64,000 bases of DNA from Liolophura sinensis. Lineage: Eukaryota > Mollusca > Polyplacophora > Chitonida > Chitonidae. Where the stretch lies: NCBI RefSeq assembly GCF_032854445.1, contig NC_088300.1, positions 51,992,984 to 52,056,983 on the forward strand, given 5' to 3'. The notes beneath the pieces are model-generated. The model saw nothing but the letters and a program-made list of their open reading frames with translations. It made no database searches and had not been told where the DNA came from. The translations under genes were made by a program, and so were the position numbers. Shown here piece by piece: positions 3,301 through 59,300 of this stretch. Each line of letters opens with the position of its first letter. Position 1 is the stretch's first letter.

Positions 3301-4010
3301 GAAGTGCTCAGAGTTAATTTACTCTTCGATTTTCTCCAGATTCCGTCTCGTTTCCTCCATACTCCGTCTCTTCAGACCATGTCTAATTTCCTCCAGATTA
3401 TGCCTGGTTTCCGACAGATTATGTCTGGTTTCCACCAGACTCCGCCTCGTTTCCTACAGACTATGTGTAGTTTACTCTGTCTAGTTTTCACTAGACTATG
3501 TCTGATTTCCTCCAGACTGTGTATATTTTTATCCAGATTCGGGTTGTTTCAGACTGTGTTTGTTTTCCTCTCGACAGTCTGGTTTCATCCACAAATTCTT
3601 CAGTGACAGAATGGCTTTTCCATTTAAATATAATACTTAAGACATGAATCAAACTGCAGATGAATAAGATAACATGTGTTTCACTTTCAGGCGTCAACGG
3701 CTTGTCCCTAGGTAATCTGGTGGTGGATATGGGAACTAACGGCAATGTGGAGTGGTACCTCATGGCAATAGGGGCAGAGTCCGACATACATTCCATACAT
3801 TTTCATGGACATACATTCGTCCAGTCCAAATATAAGAAACATCGACGCGATACGATAGGTTTATTTCCGGGAACTACAGCCACGGTCTCTATGAAGACGG
3901 ACAATCCGGGTCTTTGGTTGTTACACTGTCACGTGAACAACGAACCAATGATCGGCATGGAAATGAAATATGAAGTGGTCGATAGGCATTTGAACTTTGG
4001 GTCGTCATAG
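313..4010 (+). CDS. Hephaestin/ceruloplasmin-like multicopper oxidase, 3' part (four exons)
   Basis: Copper ferroxidase-family protein; its N-terminal part lies left of the window. Exons are 313-525, 1365-1620, 2474-3111 and 3691-4010 (stop TAG). Phases match (1, 2, 1) and all introns are GT-AG, giving 474 visible residues. Exons 1-2 end a cupredoxin domain like ceruloplasmin domain 4: HSIYFHGH, then V-C-R-T-H with a downstream A-G-M, so the type-1 Cys, His and Met are kept but not the type-3 histidines. Exon 3 is a domain-5-like unit (motif NSGLVGPLIICRKGTL) and opens domain 6. Exon 4 has HSIHFHGH and LLHCHVNNEPMIGM: the HCH trinuclear ligands and type-1 Cys and Met are present, but the expected type-1 His after HCH is Glu. 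The protein ends at FGSS without a hydrophobic tail, so unlike hephaestin it is probably secreted rather than membrane-anchored. A decayed SINE and a 21-bp array lie in its introns. Confidence 0.9.
600..695 (-). repeat. tRNA-headed SINE fragment (third family)
   Basis: On the minus strand the block reads as a tRNA-like head ('gtggcctaatggttacaggg', a diverged B-box near 635) followed by 'gcgtcgggtcatgcc' and an A-rich stretch. It lies in intron 1 of the oxidase fragment. The cloverleaf is not intact, so this is a SINE head rather than a tRNA gene. Confidence 0.45.
1735..2080 (+). repeat. SINE family B copy, diverged
   Basis: A tRNA-like head ('ggccgaatggttataaag', B-box-like 'ggtttcaaatccggcc') is followed by a body and a tail resembling 'ctgggttcctccacccaca' and 'cattcttgaatatggcgtta'. 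The same tail recurs near 2.2, 17.9, 19.7, 45.3, 51.5 and 53.5 kb. It sits in an intron of the oxidase gene. Confidence 0.5.
3325..3600 (+). repeat. 21-bp pyrimidine-rich minisatellite in oxidase intron
   Basis: Roughly a dozen units of about 21 bp modelled on 'tttcctccagactatgtctgg'-like sequence; the cleanest units run from about 3397 to 3480. Each unit joins a pyrimidine run to CAG/TAG, as a 3' splice site does. The array ends about 90 bp before the true acceptor of the last oxidase exon (AG at 3689-3690). Confidence 0.75.
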
Positions 4011-8460: not shown

Positions 8461-9699
8461 ATTTACTACATTTGTGACTGCTTACAGGGGAGCTCGATGA
8501 TTGGGTGTTGTCTAGGGGTTGACCAGGGTAGGACAAGAAAAACAGCACTGACCCCACACTTACAGAAATCTGACGTACAACTATATTGCTAAAAAGTGTT
8601 CAAAATATGCTGTCTCAAGATACATAATTCACCCCATATCGACGCTTGCACGACAATATTTTCTCTCCAGTTTTCGAACCCATATGTTAGCGTGTTCTCC
8701 CACAAACACAAGGCACCCTCTACAACGAGTAACTACATATGGACTGTACCAGACATGTTTAGTGTATCGTTCGATATTTTACGGATTCAAAATACCGAAG
8801 CCACATTTCTTTCTTTTCATCGTACGTCATTCTGAAACCGACAACGCTGTAATACGTATGTGCAGTATCTGTCTTATATTTAGATAAATTAAGCTCATTA
8901 TTTTTCATAAGAACGGATACAGACTTCAAATGGTTACTATGCTCGTTGTAAGCTAAATTTCAAGCTGAAATGTAAATCAGTGCTAATACTAGTCAGGCTT
9001 CTGATTATAACATTCTCTGGGGGTAGCGGGCAGGTGAGGTCAACTTTCGGATCAGATAAATAGCGCATGCTCATGAATAAACTAGCTGTTGACCAACAAT
9101 TCTTGTTGATGGTATAACCAGTTAAACTGGCAATTGGCCAATTCGTTTGCAAATTCACTTGATTAGGTGAATACGCTTAATACTATGTTTTGCACATATC
9201 CCCAGATCTCCATGTGATAAAACTATTTCCGTAATATATATGATCATAAACGATGTATGATCACAAACGATGTGATCTCGCAAACCATGTCTATTTTTAT
9301 AATCATAAAATTTAGTTTGATTGTGATTCTGCGCCGGCATCAATACATCCTCTGCATTTTCTGTATCACTTAAACGTCTGAAAATCTCCCATGGAAAAGT
9401 TGCATAGTATGTTTAGATATCTGAGACCACACAGAATAGACGACATTAAGCATATCTTTTGCGAAACATACCTTTTTGTAGTGGTGTATGTCAGCAGGTG
9501 GTAGACTGCATGGCCTAAATCTCGTCACACGACGTCGAGAAGTCTACAAAGGAGAAAGAAAGGAAAATCGAGCTATAGGGATGATTAGTACAACACACCC
9601 AATTGTATAACCTTTTCGTAATGAAGAATTTACTGATATTAATTGAGGTTGCGTGAAACAAACATTTCCGGATATAAGCATCACTGGACTATCACACAG
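8461..9699. other. Spacer upstream of SLC23 coding start
   Basis: Unique AT-rich sequence; nothing recognised apart from the acceptor-like end at 9693-9699. Core-promoter motifs could not be assigned with confidence. Confidence 0.4.
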
Positions 9700-9705
9700 G
9701 TAACC

Positions 9706-12700
9706 ATGTTGAACGAGAAGTCATCTAAAAGTACCAATGGAATGATGCAAAAGCTTCCCCCGGAAGAGGCTGAGGATGAGGAGAGTGAGGATATAGTCGT
9801 ACAGGAACTTGCCCCGGCCCTGCTGTACGGCGTCTCCGACATACCGCCTCTCGCGGTGTCTTTACCATTCGCCCTGCAGGTAAGAAAGTACCGATAACCA
9901 CGAAAGTGTCGCACAGCGCTGCTAGAAAGGTTACATTGAGATAGTTTCAAAGTACTGTACTCTAGTGGTACCATTCGAATTGTTTTAAATTTTATACTGA
10001 TGCACAATGGTTTATAGCTTTCTCAGTGGCAAACAGTTTTGGATTTTTCCCCTAAGTTTACACAACGCGCAGAAAAAGTTTACTCCGCGAGGAGAATGTT
10101 TATATATCGCAGAGAAACGGTTCACACGGTGAGGAAAAGGTTCACACTGCGGATAAAATATTCACACCGTAAGGAAATGGTTCACACCGCCAGGAAATGG
10201 TTCAAACTGCAGAGAAATGGTTCACATCGTGAGGGTAGATTAACACCGTGAGGAAATGGGTTACACCATGAGAAAAGGTTTACACTGCACAGAAATGATT
10301 CACTGCGCGGAGAAAAGGTTTACACATCGCGGAGAAAATGTGTTCTTTCGTTTTTGAATACTTTAATTTGTTTTGTTATTAATGGTAATTTTAATAGTAA
10401 AATCTAAGGATGTTTTAAATCGCTGTATGGTCAATATATTATATCAAAATTATTCGATAACATTATAAGGCGCTCGGTCCTAATGTCAGAATTTTTATAG
10501 CGCTATCTGAGATGCCATGCTGAGGATACTGTGCAGGCACAATTCCCTTCCCGGTACCGACACTGAACCAGCTTTTGGTTTGTTCCCTCACCGGGACGCC
10601 ATGCTGAAGGCGACAGACACCACGACCCACCCCGCCACTGTACACTGAGCGTTTCTGTACTTGCCCTATACACCTTCTGCTGACCGCCGCGGAATCTCCA
10701 GTAATACAAAATTTAAAGAGATTATACTGGAGCATTTGGCTAAAAATCAGTCAGTGCCGCCAGAATCATGAACATTTCGGCATTGACACCAATCAAATTC
10801 TGGTTATCATCTTAGAATTGGCCCAATTAATTACGTTTCACACATTACCAGCATTGTCTGTGCGCGTGTTACCGTTTAAAACGTTTAAAAAAGTTAAATT
10901 TATTTATTTATTATTTTGATTATTATTTTTATTTATTTATTACGACGGGGGCCAGCATTATGGTGGGAAGAAACCGGGCAGAGCCCGGGGGAAACCCACG
11001 ACCATCCACTGGTGAGAGTCTCCCGCGTCATTACGCTGCGCCAGCGCGCTAACCAACTGAGCCGCGGCGGCCCCCTAGAAAAATTTATAATGCAGTTCGA
11101 ACTTTTACAAATTTTCGAATCACTCATGTATTGTAGTAGTCTGATATTTTCTGAAAGGCATTGATTTGAGATATTCTTGGTAAATAGAGAAAATTTTATT
11201 CATTGTTTTGCCAACAATCTCCTGTATAGCCTTTCCAAGTTATTCTTTCTGTTCCAAGCTTGGTCATGGGCTCGAGTCTCCCTCTGTGTCCTCTCCTCCC
11301 TGCTGTGCCAGTCTCTTTGATATTTGATGGCTTTCTTAATATTAATGTACATGTATTACAGTTGGGGTGTGTTTAAACATTAGTTTTAATCATGTTTTGA
11401 TTGTTTAAGCATTAGTTGTAATCATGTTTTGGTTGTTCACAGATTTGCATTCAAACTGTTTCTGCCGTTATCACACACTCGATGCTAACCGCCAAGGCCA
11501 TTTGTGCTCCTGCCATAATAGCCGCCAGAATCATGAACACTTCGGTATTTTTATCCGGCTTAACAACATTGCTACAAACAACTCTGGGCGTAAGGTAATT
11601 TTGTTTAGCCGCAGTAAATCTGCTTTTGTATTTGTTTATGTTATTAATGTAATTTAAGATCATTTGTTACGCAAGCAAAAGGCCCTAGGTAAATATGATG
11701 AATGCAGTTATGTTGTGCAGAAAAATATTTAGAAATCCGTTTTGAACAAAACAAACGACAAAAAAATTAATCAACCAATAGCGACACTTTAGCTAACTGT
11801 CTATAGTGTCAACTAGTGCTCACCCGTTATTTGACAATTTGAATAGTTTTTCCCTTCATGATTAGACTCTAACGCCGAATTCACGAGGATTCCTAATTGT
11901 GTAATACGATAACAGTTATCATTCATTCTGGTTCTACCTGCTCATCAAGGTTTAACTGAAATATTAGCTAATGTAAAACCTATAACCATTCATCCATGTC
12001 ATTTCAGGTTACCTATTTTCCAAGGACCTTCAATCCTATATATTATGCCATTACTGGTAAGGGCAGCTTTGCCTGTCTGGTCGTGTCCAGCCAGCACAAA
12101 TGGTAAGACCTGTTAACGCCGTCTCGACTGTGAAAATAGTAAAAACTGTTGACACAGCCTCGACTTTGAAAATGGTAAGAACTGTTGACACAGCCTCGAC
12201 TGTGAAAATGGTAAGAACTGTTGACACAACCTCGACTTTGAAAATGGTAAGAACTAATAACACAGTCTCGACTGTGAAAGAAGTAAGAACTGTTGACACA
12301 ACCTCGACTGTGAAAATAGTAAGAACTGTTGACACAGGCTCGACTGTGTAAATAGTAAGAACTGTTGCCACAGCCTCGACTGTGTAAATAGTAAGAACTG
12401 TTGACACAACCTCGTCACATAGGAATAATAAGAGTAACTTTTAGCTAAACGTCGTCAGTACGTACGCTGAGAACTGTTAGCACGATCAACAGAAGAAATG
12501 ATAAGAACTGGTGGTTAAGCCTCGTCAGTATGTATGCTGAAAATTGTTGAGACAGTCTCGATACTGGCAAGAATGGCAAGAAATAAGTCTTGACAGTGAA
12601 AATGGTATGAACTACAGCACGAACTAGAAGAGCTGTTGACACAGCATAGTCATTAGGAATTGTAGTGACTGTTGACAGTCTCCTCAGTACAAATTGTAAT

Positions 12701-15700
12701 ACATGCTGACACAATCTAATCAGTGCGAATTGTAGTACATGTTGACAAAGTCTAATCCGTGCGAATTATAAAGCATGATGACAAAGTCTAATCAGTGCGA
12801 ATTGTAATACATGTTAACACAGTCTAATCAGTGCGAATTGTAATACACGTACATGTTGACACAGTCTAGCCCCCAGCAATTGTAAGAACTGCTGACAGTC
12901 TCGTAAGCATGAAAGGAAAGAACTGATGACTAATAAATATATGTATATAAAATATATCGTGATGTAAATTCACCCTTGTTCTTGACCAGGAAATGGAACG
13001 ACCGCTGCAAATTTGACTGACACTGACGGTGCACAAGATTTCATAAGCTGGGATATTCGTCTTGCAGAAGTGAGATCATGCATTGTTTTATCTCAAACCT
13101 AAATCCAAACAAAGTAATACAGTTCACTTAAACTGTTGCCTATTTCTCTGTCCTCGTGAGTTAGATCTGTGAGCTAGTGGAAGTATGTATCGTACATTTA
13201 CTTAATCGACTTAGAGGAATCCATAACCTGTCAGGTACAGTTAGCACCGGGTAGTTAGATCACGAATCTGCCTTAAACAAGTCAAACTTAGGCTTAGCTT
13301 CAAAACAGGTCACTGGGCTAAAATTGCGATTAACTTAAGAATTCTTACTTTAGTATTGAGAGATGTCTTGGTCCTTCACTATAAAATTTAAAATAAGAGT
13401 TTAAAAGAAATACAACATTATACCAAATGTATCTATCTCGCCGTATCCCGCATAAAGTTTATTTTTGGTGGAGTTTTTCAAGTGACGAACCCAAAACGAG
13501 ACAGGCGGATCAATGAACAAAGTGAGCAAAGCCATGTACGAATCTTTGTATGAGTGTGGATCTCTACCCTAACTATATATATTGCATGTACACTCCGCCA
13601 GGTTTCTGGATCTTTAATGGCAGTCTCGCTGATCCACGCGATATTGGGCTACACCGGACTGGTTGGCTATATTGTCCGCTCTATCGGACCAATGACCATT
13701 GCCCCAGCTATCACCTTGGTCGGGCTGGATGTTGTGATGGTGCTGAAAGGCTTCGCTGAAATATCCTGGCTCATAGCTGGCATGTAAGTGAAGAAAATAT
13801 TTCTAGGTGCATTTGCCATAGTATATTGTCTCGGTTCGTTTCAAATTTTCAGTTATTTTTATGTCATATTTCACCGTGGCCTAACTCCCTGTTTTGCAAA
13901 ATGTCGTTCTTTATGATATCCGTGATTGTATATTGCACAGTTCAGGAATATTATACTTATAGTTGGAACAGATTCTAGAGCTTTGACTACTCCCTATTTG
14001 CTCAAGAACTCACCAATGGATGGAAGTCATTGTAGTGTCAATTATTGAAACAGATCTTTAGGAAAAGGATTACATTTTGAAAAGTAAATATTGCACGAAT
14101 GTTTAGATTTAATTTGATAAAGAAATTTGATGATTGCCATCATCACATGCTTGGTTCTCTGACTGTACCCAACACAATATTCATTCCCTTTCTTTTCATA
14201 GCTAGCAACAGCATGGTTTCCGAGTAGACCACCGCTGTGTTGGTTCCTTATCTTCGAGTTCCTTGTCTTTGAGCTACAATCTTGTTGTCTTCTCTCTTGA
14301 TAGCAACCACTTTCTTTCTTCTTTGTGTTTGAGTAGCCACGATAATCTTGGTTCTCTTTCTGTGAGTAGCAACAGCAACCCTGGTTCCTTGCATTTGGGT
14401 ACCCAACACAATCTTGGTTTTTTGTCTTTGTTTTCCCGCCACAATCCTGGTTTCTTGTCTTTGGGTATCCACCACAATACTGGTTTCTTGTTTTTAGACA
14501 TTCACCAAAATTCTGGTTTCTTTTCTTTTGGTACCCACTACAATCCTTGTTTATTGTCTTTGTGTACCCACCACAATACTGGTTTCTGTCTTCAGGTACC
14601 CAACACAATCCTGTTTTTTTTTTCTTTGGGTACCCACCACAATACTGGTCTCTTGACTTTGGGTACCCGCCATAATCCTGATCTCTTGTCTTTGGGTACC
14701 CTCCACAAAACTGGTTTCTTGTCTTTGGGTATCCGCCACAATACTGATCTCTTGACTTTGGGTACCCGCCACAATCCTGGTCTCTTGTCTTTGGGTACCC
14801 ACCACAACACTTGTTTCGTGTCTTTGGGTACCCGCCACAATACTGATCTCTTGACTTTGGGTACCCGCCACAATCCTGGTCTCTTGTCTTTGGGTACCCA
14901 CCACAACACTGGTTTCTTGTCTTTGGGTACCCGCCACAATACTGATCTCTTGACTTTGGGTACCCGCCACAATCCTGGTCTCTTGTCTTTGGGTACCCAC
15001 CACAACACTGGTTTCGTGTCTTTGGGCACCTGCCACAATACTGGGCTCTTGTTTTGGATACCCACCACAATACTGGTTTCTTGTCTTTGGGTACCCACCA
15101 CAATACTGGTTTCTTGTCTTTGGGTACCCGCCACAATACTGGTTTGTTGTCTTTGGGTACCCGCCACAATACTGGTTTCTTGTCTTTGGGTACCCGCCAC
15201 AATATGGTTTCTTGTCTTTGGCCACAATATGGTTTCTTGTCTTTGGGTACCCACCACAATCTTGATCTCTTATCTTTGGATACCCACCACAATACTGGTT
15301 CCCCTGTAATCTTTAATCCTTGTCTTTGTGATGCCCCGGCAATCCCTGGTTCCGCGTTTTCTGTAAGTTCATGGCTGATTTTATACTGGCAATAATACTG
15401 GAAAGTGCCCATAACAGTTCCTTGGTATTCTCTGCTTTCAGAACTTTCTTGGTGGTAATCATTTGCTCTTGTTATCTGGCCAATGTACGAGTCCCGCTTC
15501 CTTCGTGGAACAGAAAGCGAGGAATTTATATTCAACGATGTCTAATTTTCCGTCCGTTTGGGGTAAGAATTTCATCCCTACAAGATACATGTGGTTCCAA
15601 ATTCAGGGGACGTACTGGGGACTGTCTCCATGTGGATGTTGACAACATCATACCTTGATTCAATATTTCTTTTGAAAACACGTATAAAATACATCTGTGG

Positions 15701-18700
15701 CGAATGGCTTAGTACAAATATAAAACAATCCCTAGTTTGTAGCCGCTTATACATTGTTAAAAGCGTCGATATTTCACGCATTAAACAAAACCACATTTCT
15801 GGGGTTGGATGTGGGACAAAAATGGAAACACAAGCAGAAAGCTGTTATACTTAATTTACTGTTCAAATGGTTCTCTTACAGATAATAATCGCCATGATCA
15901 TAGGCTGGCTGCTGTGTTTTATATTGACTGAGACCGGGTTTTTCTCTGATGACCCAGATGTTCTCGAATACCAAGCTCGAACAGACAGCAAAGGTGACGT
16001 CATTGAGATGGCGTCATGGTTTTATGTGCCCTACCCAGGTACGTGCGAAAGCTTTCGCGGGCATTTCTACTAAGAATATTTGAGAGTGTCACTAACAGTT
16101 TGTTCATTAATAATAGTTGTGTCAGGGATAGTGTGGTTTTAAGAGTATTGAAAGTGATGTACATCCCATTCAAGCCGACACCGACCCCTAAGATTGGATC
16201 CATTGTTGGATTTTGGGTTTGACAAAATAAAGTCTTTTTTTTTCAGGACAGTTTGGTCCTCCAAGCTTCAGCACTGAATTGTTTTTCGGTCTTATTATCG
16301 CTATGGTAAGCTCAGTTCTGGATTCGGTGGCGGACTACATCCTGGCAAGTAAAGTCTGCCGAATTAGTAAACCTCCGCCTCATGCCGTAAATCGGGGGCT
16401 TGTAGTGGAAGGTGCGTGTAGTATTCTGTCTGGGGCGTTTGGGGCGGGACACGCCACGACCACGTACAGCGGCCTTATTGGAAATCTGTCACTGACCGGG
16501 GTAAGTTCATTTCTGTCAATATAGTAAACCTATGGAATTAAAATAAAACAGACAGGCAATTAAATGAATTAAACGTCGGTAGACAAGAGGCCGTATTTCA
16601 CCGATTACGTGTCGCCATTTGCCAGCTATCACATTCTGTTTTGATTCTCTATGCTGTACGTCTTTAACTATGTTTATAAAAACACATGGGGAAATTATTC
16701 GTGACTAGCGTCAGTTTTACCATTTTGCATTCTACTCGTTAACCGAGAAACGGACCTTTAAAACTGATAACTGATAAATTTGTTTTGGAATTCCCAGGCA
16801 AAACATAAGTATTAGGCTAGTTATATGCAAAACATATGTATTCAGTTATAAGCAAAACATAGCTATAAATCAGACTAGTTGTAAGTACAACATTTGTATT
16901 GTATTATTAACAAAGCATGCTGATGTATCATATACACAGAAAACAGAAGATGTCATTTGTTTCTTAACATTGCCGTGCCAATCTCGCCAAAATCCCATTC
17001 ACGAAATGCAAATCGTTTTCACCCAGACAGTTCAACAGATTGTAAGAACGTTTTCCGTTTGTTTGAAGGCGTTATCGGGGATTTATTTGATATTTCTTCG
17101 TGCAGATCGGCAGTAGGCGAGTGTTCCAACTTGTTGGAATCATACTCATGTCTGTGGGAATCTTTGGCAAGTTTGGCGCTTTACTTGTGACGATGCCGAA
17201 ACCAATCGTGGGAGGATTTTCTTCTGTCGGCATGGGCTGTATGATCGGAATGGCACTGTCCAGTCTGGAAGAGGTCGATCTCACTTTACCCCGCAATGTC
17301 ATCTCCCTGGGATTACCCCTGGTGCTAGGTACAATGATACCCAGCTGGGTGAAGGCCAATCCTAATGGATTGGAGACAGGTAAGATATTACCTGTATCAG
17401 GTACCTGCAAGGTTCCGCTGAAACGAATGTTAATGTTGTTGGACTATATAGGGTTAAAGCTGTTTTAAAAATTATTTATGGTGAGAACACACACAACGGA
17501 ATGGAGACGCAACTGTTGCCAAAACATTTAGAATGACTAACTTACATGTATCTATGATGCCCAAAATTCAAATAACAGGAAAAACCAAATGCCAATTTGG
17601 CTTCCCAATTCAGCACGTACTATAGGCCAACAATTCTCAATGAGGGGAACGGAAAGTGGGCAATGCTTGTCTTGCAATGGCTAGGACAATCTAGGTGCAA
17701 GTTTATTTCTGGCCTTGGGGCAGAGAATTTGTCCTTCCCCCCGCTATCCTGAAATAAGCAGGAATATTGGCCTCGGTGGCAATAAGCAGTCGACTACATC
17801 CGTGAGCTTGTCTGAGCATTCTGACATGTATTGAATACCACTCAATAGTGTGCATGTCTGTACATATCAAACGGAAAAGTGCCTCAGTAACTTGCCAAGG
17901 GTTTGTGGTTTATCCCGGGTACTTCTGTTTTCCCCACCCATGAAAAGTAGTTACCATCGCATATGAAAAATTCTAGAGTATGTCTTGAAACAAAAATCAT
18001 ACATTCTGACAAGTCAGTTAGCCAAGCTATCATTTTGCCTGTCGGCCAATGTGATATCTTTAAATTTGATGTCCATATATCATTAAAGTTTGCATATTTT
18101 CGTCCATTCTAGGTGTGAGCGAACTCACTCAACTTCTGAACGCTTTGTTGAGTAACTCCATGTTTGTGGGGGGCGTAACAGGATTTTTCCTGGACAACAC
18201 ATTACCAGGTAATCTACTGACAATATGAAACGCTCTGGGGAACCTGTACCCTACACCACATGTACTGCTAAATAATGACATCATTAATCATACAAGCTTG
18301 GAAAAAATAAAAAAAATCCATCGACAAGTCACACTATATGTGATGTAAACTTTTAAGAATTGCCCCATAAGCACGTTAAATCATACCAATAATCGTCGAT
18401 CAGTGGGGTCTCGTATTGCAATCTAGTGTCCAGTAACTCGACACAAGAGTTTACACGAACCTGAGGTGCTGATTGCCAACTCTACACTCATCACCCGCCC
18501 CAACCCCACCAATCTTCTCCACCAACACCAATCACTTCGATGCATAAACCATACCTCCTTCGTAATCCTATCCGGGTACCACTTAAAGCACAATAACATT
18601 TGTATATACAATAATAAAGGTACGTGAACAAGTTGAGTTCTAAGCTTTTCCTCACCCACGTATGTATACCATTGTTCGTACAGGTAATGGGAAGAAGAAA

Positions 18701-18853
18701 TCTACTGGCAGCGACACTATAGATGGGGAGGAGGAGAATTTTGAGAACAGAGCTGGCCTGGCGCCGTACGACTTGCCCTTTGTGAAAGGGTATCTGCGTC
18801 GGCAGAGATGGACACGATTTGTGCCAATCTTACCTCACACGCGGAAATTGTAA
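9706..18853 (+). CDS. SLC23 (nucleobase-ascorbate transporter) family membrane transporter, 11 exons
   Basis: Sodium-coupled ascorbate or nucleobase carrier of the plasma membrane by family. Exons: 9706-9879, 11443-11594, 12008-12102, 12990-13069, 13602-13783, 15442-15562, 15882-16038, 16247-16500, 17106-17379, 18113-18208, 18684-18853 (TAA). All phases match and all junctions are GT-AG; the total of 1755 nt gives 584 residues, close to human SLC23A1/A2. Family marks: LPFALQ in TM1, [15 protein letters not shown], an NGT glycosylation-type loop, [48 protein letters not shown] and APYDLPF. Oddities: the TM1 QH pair is QI, the TM8 Glu-containing motif reads DSVADY, and the NxG signature before GSRR reads S-G-L-I-G, losing the Asn. 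The start ATG is preceded by an acceptor. Introns 1, 3 and 5 carry minisatellites. The family call is firm; the substrate is not. Confidence 0.95.
10060..10345. repeat. 20-bp minisatellite in SLC23 intron 1
   Basis: About fourteen degenerate 20-bp units of the form 'aaatggttcacaccgtgagg'. The array is intronic and AT/GC mixed, and is not coding. Confidence 0.75.
10895..11078 (-). repeat. SINE family A copy with internal deletion
   Basis: An AT-rich tail run is followed by the family A body and the tRNA-like head ('gctcagttggttagcgcgct' on the minus strand). The segment between the 'ccatcc' box and 'gtgagag' is missing. It lies in intron 1 of the SLC23 gene. Confidence 0.8.
12102..12930 (+). 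repeat. 36-bp minisatellite that includes the exon 3 splice donor and nearly fills SLC23 intron 3
   Basis: The first unit starts at the exon 3/intron 3 boundary: the true donor is G|GTAAGA at 12102/12103. Units of exactly 36 bp follow at 12138, 12174, 12210, 12246, 12282, 12318, 12354 and 12390, each beginning GGTAAGA or AGTAARA. After about 12420 the array is more diverged ('gtaatacatgttgacacagt' type) but aligns to the same 36-bp unit until about 12930. Intron 3 is 12103-12989, so the array makes up over 90 percent of it. Confidence 0.9.
14225..15310. repeat. 33-bp minisatellite with 99-bp higher-order period, SLC23 intron 5
   Basis: About 33 units based on 'cttgtctttgggtacccacc' plus 'acaatactggttt'. 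Between about 14640 and 15010 three unit types (endings 'actgatct', 'cctggtct', 'cactggttt') cycle in a fixed order, giving a 99-bp higher-order repeat present at least three times. Because 33 is a multiple of three and the unit lacks stops in several frames, long spurious open frames run on both strands. Confidence 0.9.
17690..18000 (+). repeat. SINE family B copy, diverged, SLC23 intron 9
   Basis: The body and 3' half resemble the other family B copies: 'gtgcctcagtaacttgccaa', 'tttatcccgggtacttctgt', 'ccccacccatgaaaag' and a weak tail. The head is degraded. Confidence 0.5.
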
Positions 18854-19108
18854 CGTCGTGGTGCAAACCACGACCTGATTGGACGACAAACTATCCATAC
18901 AGTGGATAGTAAACTGATCACACACAGCATCAAACTGATCAAAATGAGTCACCTCCGCAAGTGTCAGTGTTTGCGAGCCAACATCTTGGGTCTGTAACAA
19001 CGCTCAGATTGATTGAGGGTAGTGTTTGTCTGTGGTTCGGTTAACAGGAATCTTGGAGGAGATCCTGTAAACTAAGTCTTTTTATACCCCTGAATTTAGA
19101 TCTGCGGG

Positions 19109-33135: not shown

Positions 33136-33358
33136 GTTTATTTATTTGAATGGTGTTTTACGCCATACTCAAGAATAATTCAGTTATACAACGACGGCCA
33201 GCATTATGGTGGGAGGAAACAGGGCAGAGCCCAGGAGAAACCCATGACCATCCGCAGGTTGCTGCAAGACCTTACCACGTACTGCCGGAGAGGACAACAT
33301 GAGCTGGACTTGAACTCCTGGATCATTAGTGCGCTAACCAACTGAGCCACGGAGGCCC
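33136..33358 (-). repeat. SINE family A copy
   Basis: Full body and tRNA-like head on the minus strand ('gcctccgtggctcagttggt' at its 5' end), with a short deletion before the head. Confidence 0.85.
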
Positions 33359-34818: not shown

Positions 34819-36084
34819 GGGTATACAATAAGTTGATTATTTTTAAACCAGTCAATATCAAAACCAATCAATATCGCGTGTGGCCACCCCTTGCTTCAAT
34901 GCATGCAAAAACTCTCCGACGCATAGAAAAAGTCAGTCGTCTGATGAGATGACGCGGGATTCGTTGCCATTCATCTTGGAGAGCGAACGCCAGTTCTTGT
35001 CGGTTGGCTGCAAGGTGTGGCTGTTGTCTTACTCTACGACCCATATCCCAAAGGTGTTCTATGGGGGACATATCTGGGGAACGGGCAGGTCACGGCAAGA
35101 CGTTGACGTCTTTGACGTCCAGGAAGTTCTGCACAACTCGAGCTGTATGGGGCCTGGCGTTGTCATGCTGGTACCGTACACCACGTGGCTGCTGTTGAAG
35201 GAATAGCAGGACAACAGGACGTAGAATTTCATCCACGTAACGTTAAGCTGTTGGGTTCCCGTACATGGTGACCACTGGTGTCTGTTCCTCACAAATCCCA
35301 CCTCACACCATCACACTGCCACCACCAAACGGTACCACCTCCTGGACGCATGATGCAGCCGTTCGTTCGTCTCTTCGACGGTAAACTCGCTGTCTACCAT
35401 CGGCTCGGAACAGGCAGAAGTGGCTTTCATCCGTGAAAACGACACGTTGCCAATCACGTCGCTGCCAACGGCGTACAATTCGAGCTCCTCGCAACCTCTG
35501 GCGACGACGTTCGGCTGTCAACAATTGCACTCTGAATGGTCAATAGGCCCTAATTCCGTGAACCATGAGTCTCCTGGACACGATCTTCTGACCGACCCGG
35601 TGACCTAAGGCATTGATTGACGATGACGTTACTGTTAGGAAGCGGTTCGTCAGGTGTAAGGTGCGGAGGTACCCGTCTTCTCTGGGCGTAGTTACCCTAG
35701 GCCTGCCTGTTCTTGGCCTGTCCGATATCTGCCCTGTCTGTCTGTAACGTTGCATCAAGTTTGACACAGTTACACGAGAGCAGCCGAAGGTCCTTGCAAT
35801 GTGGGCATGGGTGGCTTCCATGGATACCATACCCAGGGCCCTCTCGCGTTGTTGTGGAGTCCATCGAGGCATTACTTTGGTGGTTTTTAGTCAGTGTGAA
35901 AGGTTTTTGTACACTTATTATGGTATTAATTTCGTCAAAAGGCTGGTTAAATTCAACTCACGGAGTCGTAAAGTTTCCTATGGCCGTCAGTTTAGTAACC
36001 AAGTCCTGTTCAGTTTTTACGTATTTGTGTTACTGTCTTACTGAATCCTTTTTATACACCCTTTCCGATAACTTTTGTATACCC
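34819..36084 (-). mobile_element. Tc1/mariner transposon, non-autonomous by mutation
   Basis: About 1.27 kb between inverted ends: GGGTATACAATAAGTTGATT at the left (from 34819, reading in) and GGGTATACAAAAGTTATCGG at the right (36084 reading in on the minus strand). The transposase gene fills most of the interior. Precise ends and the TA target duplication are approximate. Confidence 0.75.
34868..35872 (-). pseudogene. Tc1-family transposase with four nonsense codons
   Basis: A single frame of 335 codons starts at ATG 35872. The N-terminal paired-like helix-turn-helix region (HIARTFGCSRVTVSNLMQRY) is followed by GRPR. The catalytic region has TDES, then HDNARPH, then SPDMSPIEHLWD; 34 residues separate the second D from the E, so it is DD34E as in Tc1. 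Premature stops lie at codons 111 (TGA, 35542-35540), 190 (TGA, 35305-35303), 210 (TAA, 35245-35243) and 261 (TGA, 35092-35090). Codons 190 and 261 sit where Trp is conserved in the family. There is no frameshift over 1 kb. The product cannot be made, so the copy is dead. Confidence 0.9.
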
Positions 36085-37514: not shown

Positions 37515-37955
37515 TTGCGTTTAGCTACCGTGTGGGAGCTACCACGGTTGGTACCATTGTCTCGGAACGTTGTCAAGTTTTGTGGGAGAAACTATCTTGC
37601 GCCCATTTACATGAAGATGCCGCAAGACAGTGAAGCGTGGAGGATTATAGCAGCTAATTTTGACGACAAATGGCAGTTTCCACACTGTCTAGGAGTTCTG
37701 GATGGAAAACATGTAGTGATGAAAGCTCCTTGGAATTTAGGTTCACTCTATTTTAATTACAAGGGCACGTTTTCCACTGTTCTTCTGGCAATGGTAGATG
37801 CAAACTTGAAGTTTATATCCATAGATGTTGGGGCATATGGGCGTAACAGTGATGGAGGAATTTTTTCCAATTCGAATCTTGGTAAGGCTATAGCTAAAGA
37901 TGCTCTACATTTCCCAGCCGATGAACCTATATATAATACATGGACATTTCAATAG
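37515..37955 (+). mobile_element. PIF/Harbinger transposase (DDE nuclease) fragment
   Basis: The frame reads WQFPHCLGVLDGKHVVMKAP, then GSLYFNYKGTFSTVLLAMVD and DVGAYGRNSDGGIFSNS. These are hallmarks of the HARBI1-like DDE_Tnp_4 nuclease, with catalytic Asp in LDGKH and in A(M)VDA. The N-terminal third and the C-terminal part with the last acidic residue are missing; the frame stops at 37955. Truncated copy, not functional alone. Complete elements also encode a Myb-like protein. Confidence 0.85.
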
Positions 37956-56323: not shown

Positions 56324-59300
56324 TCAAACCGTTATAATCCGATCAAGAGACCCGTTACTTTCATTATGAATGTTACGGGAGGTGGACTCTGGTGATTCTG
56401 GACAAGTTGTCTCCCCCTGGTTAGAAGTACTGTTATCTAGAGACAGATGTCGGATTTTTCCAGTTATCTGCTCGTCGCAATGTCTGTAATACACGGGACA
56501 CCTCATACCAAAATTCCGAAACTCTTTGACAAATGTAAGGAAGTAAACCATCATGGCAAGAGCCATAGCCCACTCTGAAACTGTAGAGACGATGTGCTCT
56601 GCAAAACCCTAAAAAAGAAAGGAAAGAAGCCTCACGTTAACCTCTAAAGCATTACGACTGATTCGACTCATTCGTACACATTCAGCTAATCTACAGGTTG
56701 CACCAACAGAACAGATTTTATTTATTTATTTTTTTTGATTGGTGTTTTACGCCGTACTCAAGAATATTACACTTATACGACAGCAGCCAGCATTATGATG
56801 GGAGGAAACCGGGCAGAGCCCGGGGAAACCCACAACCATCTGCAGGTTGCTGGCAGACCGTCCCACGTACGGCCAGAGAGGAAGCCACCATGAGCTGGAC
56901 TTGAACTCACAGCAACCGCATTGGTGAGAGACTCCTGGGTCATTATGCTGTGCTTGTGCGCTAACCAACTGATCCACGGAGGCCCCCAGAACAGATAGAT
57001 TACGTAATATAATAATGTAGAATCGACACTACCAACACCGTGTGTCACAGCGATGGGCTACGTTTACTACCAGTCATTCATGGCCATCAGGAGAAAGCGA
57101 TTCAACTGTCTTGATATACTAATTACTTTCACCAGGTCATCCCCCTGTTCACCCCGTGCTCGGGATCCGTCCATTATACTATTCACAGGTACATTATAAT
57201 GATACGTTGATCATATGTTAATTATTCAGCCCTTAATTATTTACCTAACGTTGTACTGTTAGGTCTATTCATGACTATTTCACTTATACGATAGCAGCCA
57301 ACATCATCGTGGGAGGAAACCGAACAGAGCCAGAGGGAGTGGGAGTTTGGTGGGGGGGGTGAGAATTCTCAACCATCCACATGTTACGGACAGATCTTCC
57401 CACGAACAACCAAAGATGAAGCCATGCAGCATGAGTTAGCTGCATTTGAATTTGCAGCGATCAGATTGTTGAGATGCTAATGGGTCCTTGTGCTGCACTA
57501 GCGTGCTAATCACTAATAGACAGAGCACAGCATATGGACATATATATAATAAACAGGTGGTTGAGTTACCCCTTCGTCTTGTTGCCAATACTTGGGGTCA
57601 AAGCCGGAAAACTTGCCCATTGCTACAGGTGTGGACACAACTACTGATCAAGATTAAGGCTATACAATATAACATACTGCAGTGAACTCAACATCAAAAG
57701 GTCTGCATGCAATTTTGGTGTTTCCACCACATATACACATAAATCCAATACAAATCTCTCACAGCAGGGCTGAAGGTGATCAATTGGGTATTCTAAACAA
57801 CTAAACATATCCATGCAAATTCCTGTATCATTCACTTTGGTTTTATGAAAAGCTGGATATATCAAATGCTAAAAACCAAATCATTAATCTTGTTCTCAAC
57901 ACTTGTATATATAATTGCAAAATCTCACATCATTTAGTTTGTATTGTTATTTCCAAGTATTTAGAGTATTTCCAGATGTATACTAAACAGTATACTTATG
58001 TATATGTATACAGATGTATACTAAACGTAAAATATGTGCGACTTTTAAACACCTACTCATTACAATGAAAAGCCTCCCATCATTTACATTGGTATTCTAC
58101 GTGTATGTATCTGGAGGTACCCTTTAATTTGGCATTCTAAACACCTACACACTACAATGCATATTATCTGAACACTTGGTTAAAAAAATGCAAACCACTA
58201 TGATCTAATTTGGTAATCCAAATATCTGGATATATGTCCCATATAATTTACTGTCAGTGCTTTTGTCCAATTGTTTCTAAATATTTACTTTGACTGTCTA
58301 TGTCTATGGTACATAGGCTGGCCTATTTGTGATATTACAAGAAATTGCTGATCCATAAAAGTTTATTACCAGAAGCTGAATATTTAAATAAGCCAATCCT
58401 AACATCACAAAAAGATAATTTCAAAGCTTCAGTCATTGTAGCCTTGCATAGCATTTCTATTGGCCTAACTTCACTTTTGTAACATTTTCACCTACGTGTA
58501 CATGTATTTGCAGGAATATCGTTTTTTAGGATAAGGATTAATCACACGAACGTGAAGGGTTAAAATATAAATGGTACCGCATTTCTTTGTTGCCACGTCT
58601 TTGTATCTCCATCAGGGAACTTATTAGCAGCAATACCACCAAAGACAAGTACTTTTAAACAGTTAAGGGTTAGTAGAAGTGCAACATAAAAAGGTGCATT
58701 AGTTAGTGTAACTAGAATATTCCTAGAACATATCGAAAATTCAAAACCAATTTCCTGTGATATACCCTGTGTGCAAAACACTTCCAATACATGCACGCAT
58801 AAAGGCAGCAAACATAAAAAGTGTGACAAAGAAGACCTTTTTCATACAGTCAAACACACTGTTGCAATCTGTAAAAATACATGCATAGGCACTCTTATTA
58901 TTATTATTATTTTATTTATCACTATATTCACTTTACATCCATTTAATAAACAATTATGGTTTAATGGCACTTCTGCAGCATTGTACATCATATTTCAAAT
59001 TTTATCTAAAAAAAAAAAATTTACCTTGTGGCCTATAAAAACTGGCTTTATGGAATTGGCTCAATGAGACATTAGGCCAGACTAAAGGTAAAACTTGTCT
59101 CAACTCTGACATTTTAAAAATTCTACAAGCAGCCCGAATGGCACTATGAGGAAATTTTGTAGGAGTTATGAGTTTAAAAAAAAGCTTGTTAAAACAGTGT
59201 TAGTCAGATCCTAATTTCTCTGACCTGATATGAATATCTATATATATCTACTTCGTATACGATACCTGCACTAATATTGGATAAAACTGGTCATTAAAAA

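Follow-up and report, generated by a model that had tools for sequence, protein, structure and literature searches.

Tandem repeats that lie across exon-intron boundaries, known as mirages, have been described in the lancelet genes Adh3, BflGb6 and BflGb9 (PMC3087553), and TnC and PGBD5 have been added to the list (PMC3902484). In the globin paper, the Adh3 units are given as 10-72 bp and the BflGb6 copies as 3 and 6, haplotypes are said to differ in mirage length, and somatic instability is cited for Adh3 (PMC3087553). The repeated AG/GT signals are treated there as possible cryptic sites, and regular splicing was judged to be undisturbed on the basis of Adh3 data and the authors' own RT-PCR (PMC3087553). 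The hosts named in the available portions of both accounts are lancelets only (PMC3087553, PMC3902484), and our search of open-licence papers found no mirage report outside this group. Two other systems bear some likeness to what follows: intron 1 of an earthworm metallothionein gene, described as holding intronic tandem units of minisatellite size (PMC12783039), and the proposal of Rogers (1989), as cited in PMC3087553, that introns may be gained through tandem duplication of AG/GT proto-splice sites.

Here we report a 36-bp repeat at the edge of exon 3 and intron 3 of an SLC23-type gene which is, as far as our searches show, a new example for an SLC23 gene of the described mirage kind. The repeat extends over the exon-intron boundary (12098-12930, including the exon bases 12098-12102), and its units are minisatellite-like copies of that boundary with a splice signal in many but not all of them: GTAAGA occurs in eight of the nine core units and, in the degenerate tail, only at 12882. 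The unit length of 36 bp falls within the 10-72 bp given for Adh3. The likeness to the amphioxus mirages has its limits: SLC23 is another gene, the exonic share of its repeat is just 5 bp, and its copies outnumber the 3 and 6 of BflGb6. The SLC23 repeat takes in the exon edge and donor, unlike the metallothionein array as described. It shares with the Rogers model, as cited, a splice-site-bearing stretch in tandem copies, but here the intron predates the duplication. We conclude that the array is real and mirage-like, and that it probably lies outside lancelets.

The array at the edge of SLC23 exon 3

The window, by which we mean the whole stretch of 64,000 nucleotides that was analysed, is part of a 609-Mb assembly (G000:C6). 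It contains an intact 11-exon SLC23-type gene, resembling those of vitamin C transporters, at 9706-18853, read as one open frame in a hand-built exon model. For the product of exons 2-5, alignment to mammalian SLC23A1 chains in the PDB reaches E 7.9e-21 at best, which supports the splicing of these exons, and several later exons align likewise to mammalian SLC23A1. The features around intron 3, all on the plus strand, are:

12008..12102 (+): SLC23 exon 3, ending in AAATG, with which array unit 1 begins (intact open reading frame; SLC23A1 alignment)
12098..12421 (+): nine good 36-bp tandem units across the exon-intron boundary (30-35 of 36 positions matching the consensus)
12103..12989 (+): SLC23 intron 3, 887 bp, phase 1
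12422..12930 (+): degenerate tail, in which the 36-bp repeat continues over 15 alignment rows (on average 69% of positions matching the consensus; score 220 against a shuffle maximum of 36)
12931..12989 (+): non-repeat intron with the 3' splice site, 59 bp
12990..13069 (+): SLC23 exon 4 (gene model; SLC23A1 alignment)

TRF reports two arrays of period 36. The first, at 12098-12414, has 8.8 copies with 87% matches and a score of 459; the other lies at 12657-12847. When a single 36-bp consensus is aligned cyclically, the alignment runs unbroken over 12098-12930 with two of the three scoring schemes, and with the strictest it ends at 12897. The score of the tail was obtained from 12422-12935 alone, the 100 first-order Markov shuffles used as its null having a mean of 24.4. 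Pairwise, units 1-9 differ by 2-12 substitutions, and identity declines from core to tail. The array thus makes up 828 of the 887 bases of intron 3 (12103-12930; 93%), in agreement with the earlier note on this DNA, which had the 36-bp phase kept to about 12930 over more than 90% of the intron. In a genome search that skipped very common words, the array sequence was found at one place.

The left edge of the array is sharp. The 36 exon bases 5' of 12098 match the unit at 9 positions, and exon 3 compared in any register gives a mean of 9.1 and a maximum of 16. The earlier note had placed the start exactly on the exon boundary; TRF and the unit alignment agree with it that the array begins at the exon 3 edge and not inside the intron, but position 12098 lies 5 bases inside the exon rather than on the boundary itself. 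The register shared by the exonic AAATG, the donor and the core units is exact, and it stays unbroken through the copies.

Several other elements were observed in the window. The upstream neighbour of the SLC23 gene is a ceruloplasmin-like multicopper oxidase gene, an intron of which holds an array of about 21 bp at 3330-3529 (TRF). Its units resemble acceptors (TTTCCTCCAG ACTA...), and a presumed exon start follows about 160 bp downstream, at 3691. Intron 5 of the SLC23 gene contains a 33-bp array of 28 copies at 14381-15300 (TRF). SINE-like copies with a conserved tail occur at 53-75, 10950-10972, 33196-33218 and 56744-56764, among others; each of two tail patterns that occur in molluscs is matched 10 times across the window, with none expected by chance, and these matches suggest a mollusc-like host. 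Pfam gene calls, covering 1 to 59993 on the plus strand and 20001 to 49996 on the minus strand, include transposase-like matches to DDE_Tnp_4 at 37698-37913 (+) and DDE_3 at 35042-35446 (-), with coordinates derived from frame positions. Rfam gave no match at gathering score in the window, and ARAGORN with the bacterial code found no tRNA there.

Decoy donors and the reading frame

The donor-like copies and the stop that follows exon 3 are located as follows:

12103..12108 (+): presumed authentic donor GTAAGA (U1 pairing -8.0 kcal/mol)
12114..12116 (+): in-frame TAA, met on use of any downstream decoy (frame reading)
12175..12180 (+): decoy donor ATG/GTAAGA, identical to the authentic one (U1 pairing)
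12211..12216 (+): decoy with the same sequence as the authentic donor (U1 pairing)
12247..12252 (+): decoy with the same sequence as the authentic donor (U1 pairing)
12283..12396 (+): four weaker GTAAGA decoys, at 12283, 12319, 12355 and 12391 (-4.5 kcal/mol)

There are 75 GT dinucleotides in 12095-12989, and the four with the best U1 pairing are the donor at 12103 and the decoys at 12175, 12211 and 12247, which have 11 bases in common and an equal pairing energy. The next best site reaches -4.6 kcal/mol, at 12903. These energies are for pairing with the U1 end. In unit 2 (12139) the motif reads GTAAAA instead of GTAAGA. The earlier note had listed donor motifs every 36 bp from 12174 to 12390; its coordinates are right, counted from the base before each GT, but only three of these decoys equal the real donor. 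Its proposal that downstream donors would extend exon 3 in frame into a stop is borne out. Readthrough from exon 3 reaches the TAA at 12114, so that use of any decoy would mean an early stop, and in-frame stops are present in eight of the nine core units, unit 8 being the exception.

Such an arrangement invites the reading that the array is a regulatory splicing device, in which identical donors draw U1 or divert transcripts to stops and array length tunes SLC23 through nonsense-mediated decay. Three decoys equal to the real donor in U1 pairing, and a frame that leads every decoy to the same TAA, are consistent with this reading. So are the modest standing of the real donor, seventh of the ten modelled donors of the SLC23 gene (range -4.6 to -11.0 kcal/mol), and the fold stability of the transcript stretch 12070-12450, which exceeds that of shuffles (z -3.05, with 1 of 100 shuffles as stable). 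Yet conservation does not set the donor 6-mer apart. With unit 1 left aside as being under splice constraint, the GTAAGA columns come third among the 36 circular windows when core units 2-9 are compared; in the tail, where one GTAAGA is left, they come 15th of 36. Special conservation of the decoy donors is rejected on these ranks. The array is also absent from the three paralogs read (see below), and lancelet mirages are reported to leave splicing undisturbed (PMC3087553). Retention of the 6-mer in the core would reflect recent homogenisation and not selection for decoys.

Genome-wide, tandem triplets of GGTAAGA at 15-45 bp spacing were found at 1552 places vs 1870 for the reversed word, both figures being places that overlap within arrays and not counts of arrays. 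Enrichment of donors in tandem arrays is therefore rejected, and donor words form tandem arrays commonly here without special reason. These counts, together with the conservation ranks, give no support to the suggestion in the earlier note that the array tunes splicing or acts as a nonsense-decay switch. We regard a splicing device as improbable; a nonsense-decay switch based on decoy donors may be possible but is unsupported, the switch reading being backed at present solely by donor identity and frame. Recursive splice sites were also considered and rejected, AG/GT being found in none of the nine core units, where ATG, ATA or GAA precedes GT. Separately, the matches listed in the genome include a plus-strand array of 52-bp units at G000:C1:1329115-1329329, in which a pyrimidine-rich ...CTCCCCTTTTATAG is followed directly by GTAAGA; these units have the form of tandem recursive-splice-like acceptor/donor pairs.

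The intron in paralogs and other boundary arrays

Of the 75 matches to SLC23 exons that a protein search of the genome gave, 11 belong to the gene in the window. Three paralogs (L062, L063 and L064, all on C12) were read at the position of intron 3, around exons 2-5, with splice sites placed by eye; in L063 the donor GTGGGT was preferred to a nearby GTAAAT as the one that preserves the phase. In each of the three, a phase 1 intron occupies the same site, after ...ATG/GT, and is followed by the counterpart of exon 4; in L062 the edge reads AAATG/GTAA. The 36-bp unit is absent from all three, their cyclic scores of 24-32 being in the range of Markov shuffles. TRF lists nothing for L062 and, for L064, just an AAAT run that lies outside the intron; L063 carries a 57-bp array, unrelated to the unit, some 98 bp into the corresponding intron.

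Because all three paralogs have both the intron and the ATG/GT edge without the unit, intron and edge are older than the array. Beyond the edge, the paralog introns are unlike the unit over their first 31 bases (7, 10 and 11 of 31 matching), so only the ATG/GT edge is shown to be ancestral. Intron lengths are 260 bp (L062), 871 bp (L063) and 885 bp (L064), vs 887 bp in the window gene. The earlier note has the intron growing with the array, but such growth is not required for an intron of this length: L064 reaches 885 bp with no TRF row inside it, although L062 measures only 260 bp.

The repeat might instead be an ordinary intronic minisatellite that adjoins the exon, its match to the edge being coincidental. 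The genome is rich in tandem arrays in which donor words are not enriched, the window SLC23 gene has further ones in introns 1 and 5 (TRF), and L063 shows that an unrelated array can sit in the corresponding intron; the lack of likeness between the unit and the paralog introns past the edge points the same way. A chance match, however, sits poorly with the exact register of the exonic AAATG and donor with the core units, and with an ATG/GT common to the window gene and its paralogs. We give coincidence a low probability.

A separate tandem duplication, of 65 bp in two copies, crosses the exon-9 donor of a further paralog (L048; C7:55668689-55668991, minus strand), and both copies carry the exon-9 end and donor AATACAG/GT:

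G000:C7:55668605-55668737: 65-bp duplication, two copies, over the exon-9 donor of SLC23 paralog L048

In the window gene, a 32-bp repeat in two copies at 11370-11437 ends 5 bp before exon 2. The base rate of such cases was estimated for SLC23 alone (the PF00209 family gave 109 matches), with HSP ends as approximate exon ends. Overlapping HSPs were merged, L001-L031 and the window gene's 8 loci were left out, and the window stretch 9501-19000 stood for the window SLC23 gene. Three of 114 ends (57 distinct matches) fall inside an array or no more than 10 bp from one, and two of the three are in the window gene, one being the intron-3 case that prompted the test. The expectation, 0.97, is for randomly placed positions that lie no more than 10 bp from an array edge, a criterion slightly unlike the observed one, and the Poisson chance of at least three is about 0.07. 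The excess of boundary arrays at SLC23 exon ends is suggestive but not significant.

Intron birth through tandem duplication of an AG/GT-containing exon stretch, as in the Rogers-type gain, would account for tandem copies that bear splice signals, but it is ruled out for practical purposes, since all three paralogs have the intron in the same place and phase without the array. An assembly artefact, in which the repeat was collapsed or expanded, is also extremely unlikely: tandem arrays are hard to assemble and one haplotype was seen, but the substitutions that distinguish units 1-9 and the gradient of identity from core to tail argue against it.

Origin and significance

The reading we prefer, and hold with considerable confidence, is that of a boundary-spanning intronic minisatellite, or mirage: the edge of an existing intron was duplicated and expanded, and its copies are passive. 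The seed would have been a stretch of 36 bp, with 5 bases from the end of exon 3 and 31 from the start of the pre-existing intron, duplicated in tandem, and the array would then have expanded by slippage or unequal exchange. Unit 1, tied to the exon, would have kept a working donor, the inner units turning over and the 3' units decaying. Splicing would proceed mostly from the first donor at 12103, with the copies passive, and occasional use of a decoy would run into the TAA in unit 1 and yield a transcript prone to nonsense-mediated decay.

From the sequences compared, the array was probably seeded by duplication of the exon-intron edge, a conclusion supported by the ATG/GT common to all three paralogs and by the unbroken register of the copies. 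Of the earlier proposal that the intron grew across its own edge, the seeding at the edge thus appears probable, and the array as the cause of intron length is not supported. A bolder conjecture, that minisatellites at splice boundaries occur repeatedly outside lancelets, with two cases here in a single SLC23 family of this genome, and that the variable length of the donor ladder sets the share of transcripts ending at the premature stop and with it SLC23 output, seems to us a long shot.

SLC23 intron 3 provides a clear case of a donor-side boundary array with an exact edge. It points to an array that grew where a boundary already existed, rather than to intron birth, because the paralogs read show the intron first and the repeat second. 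The SLC23 array is probably passive, and its three identical decoys within 144 bp, all with one common stop, make it a natural test of exon-proximal donor choice. Should the host be a mollusc, boundary-spanning minisatellites would be no peculiarity of lancelets.
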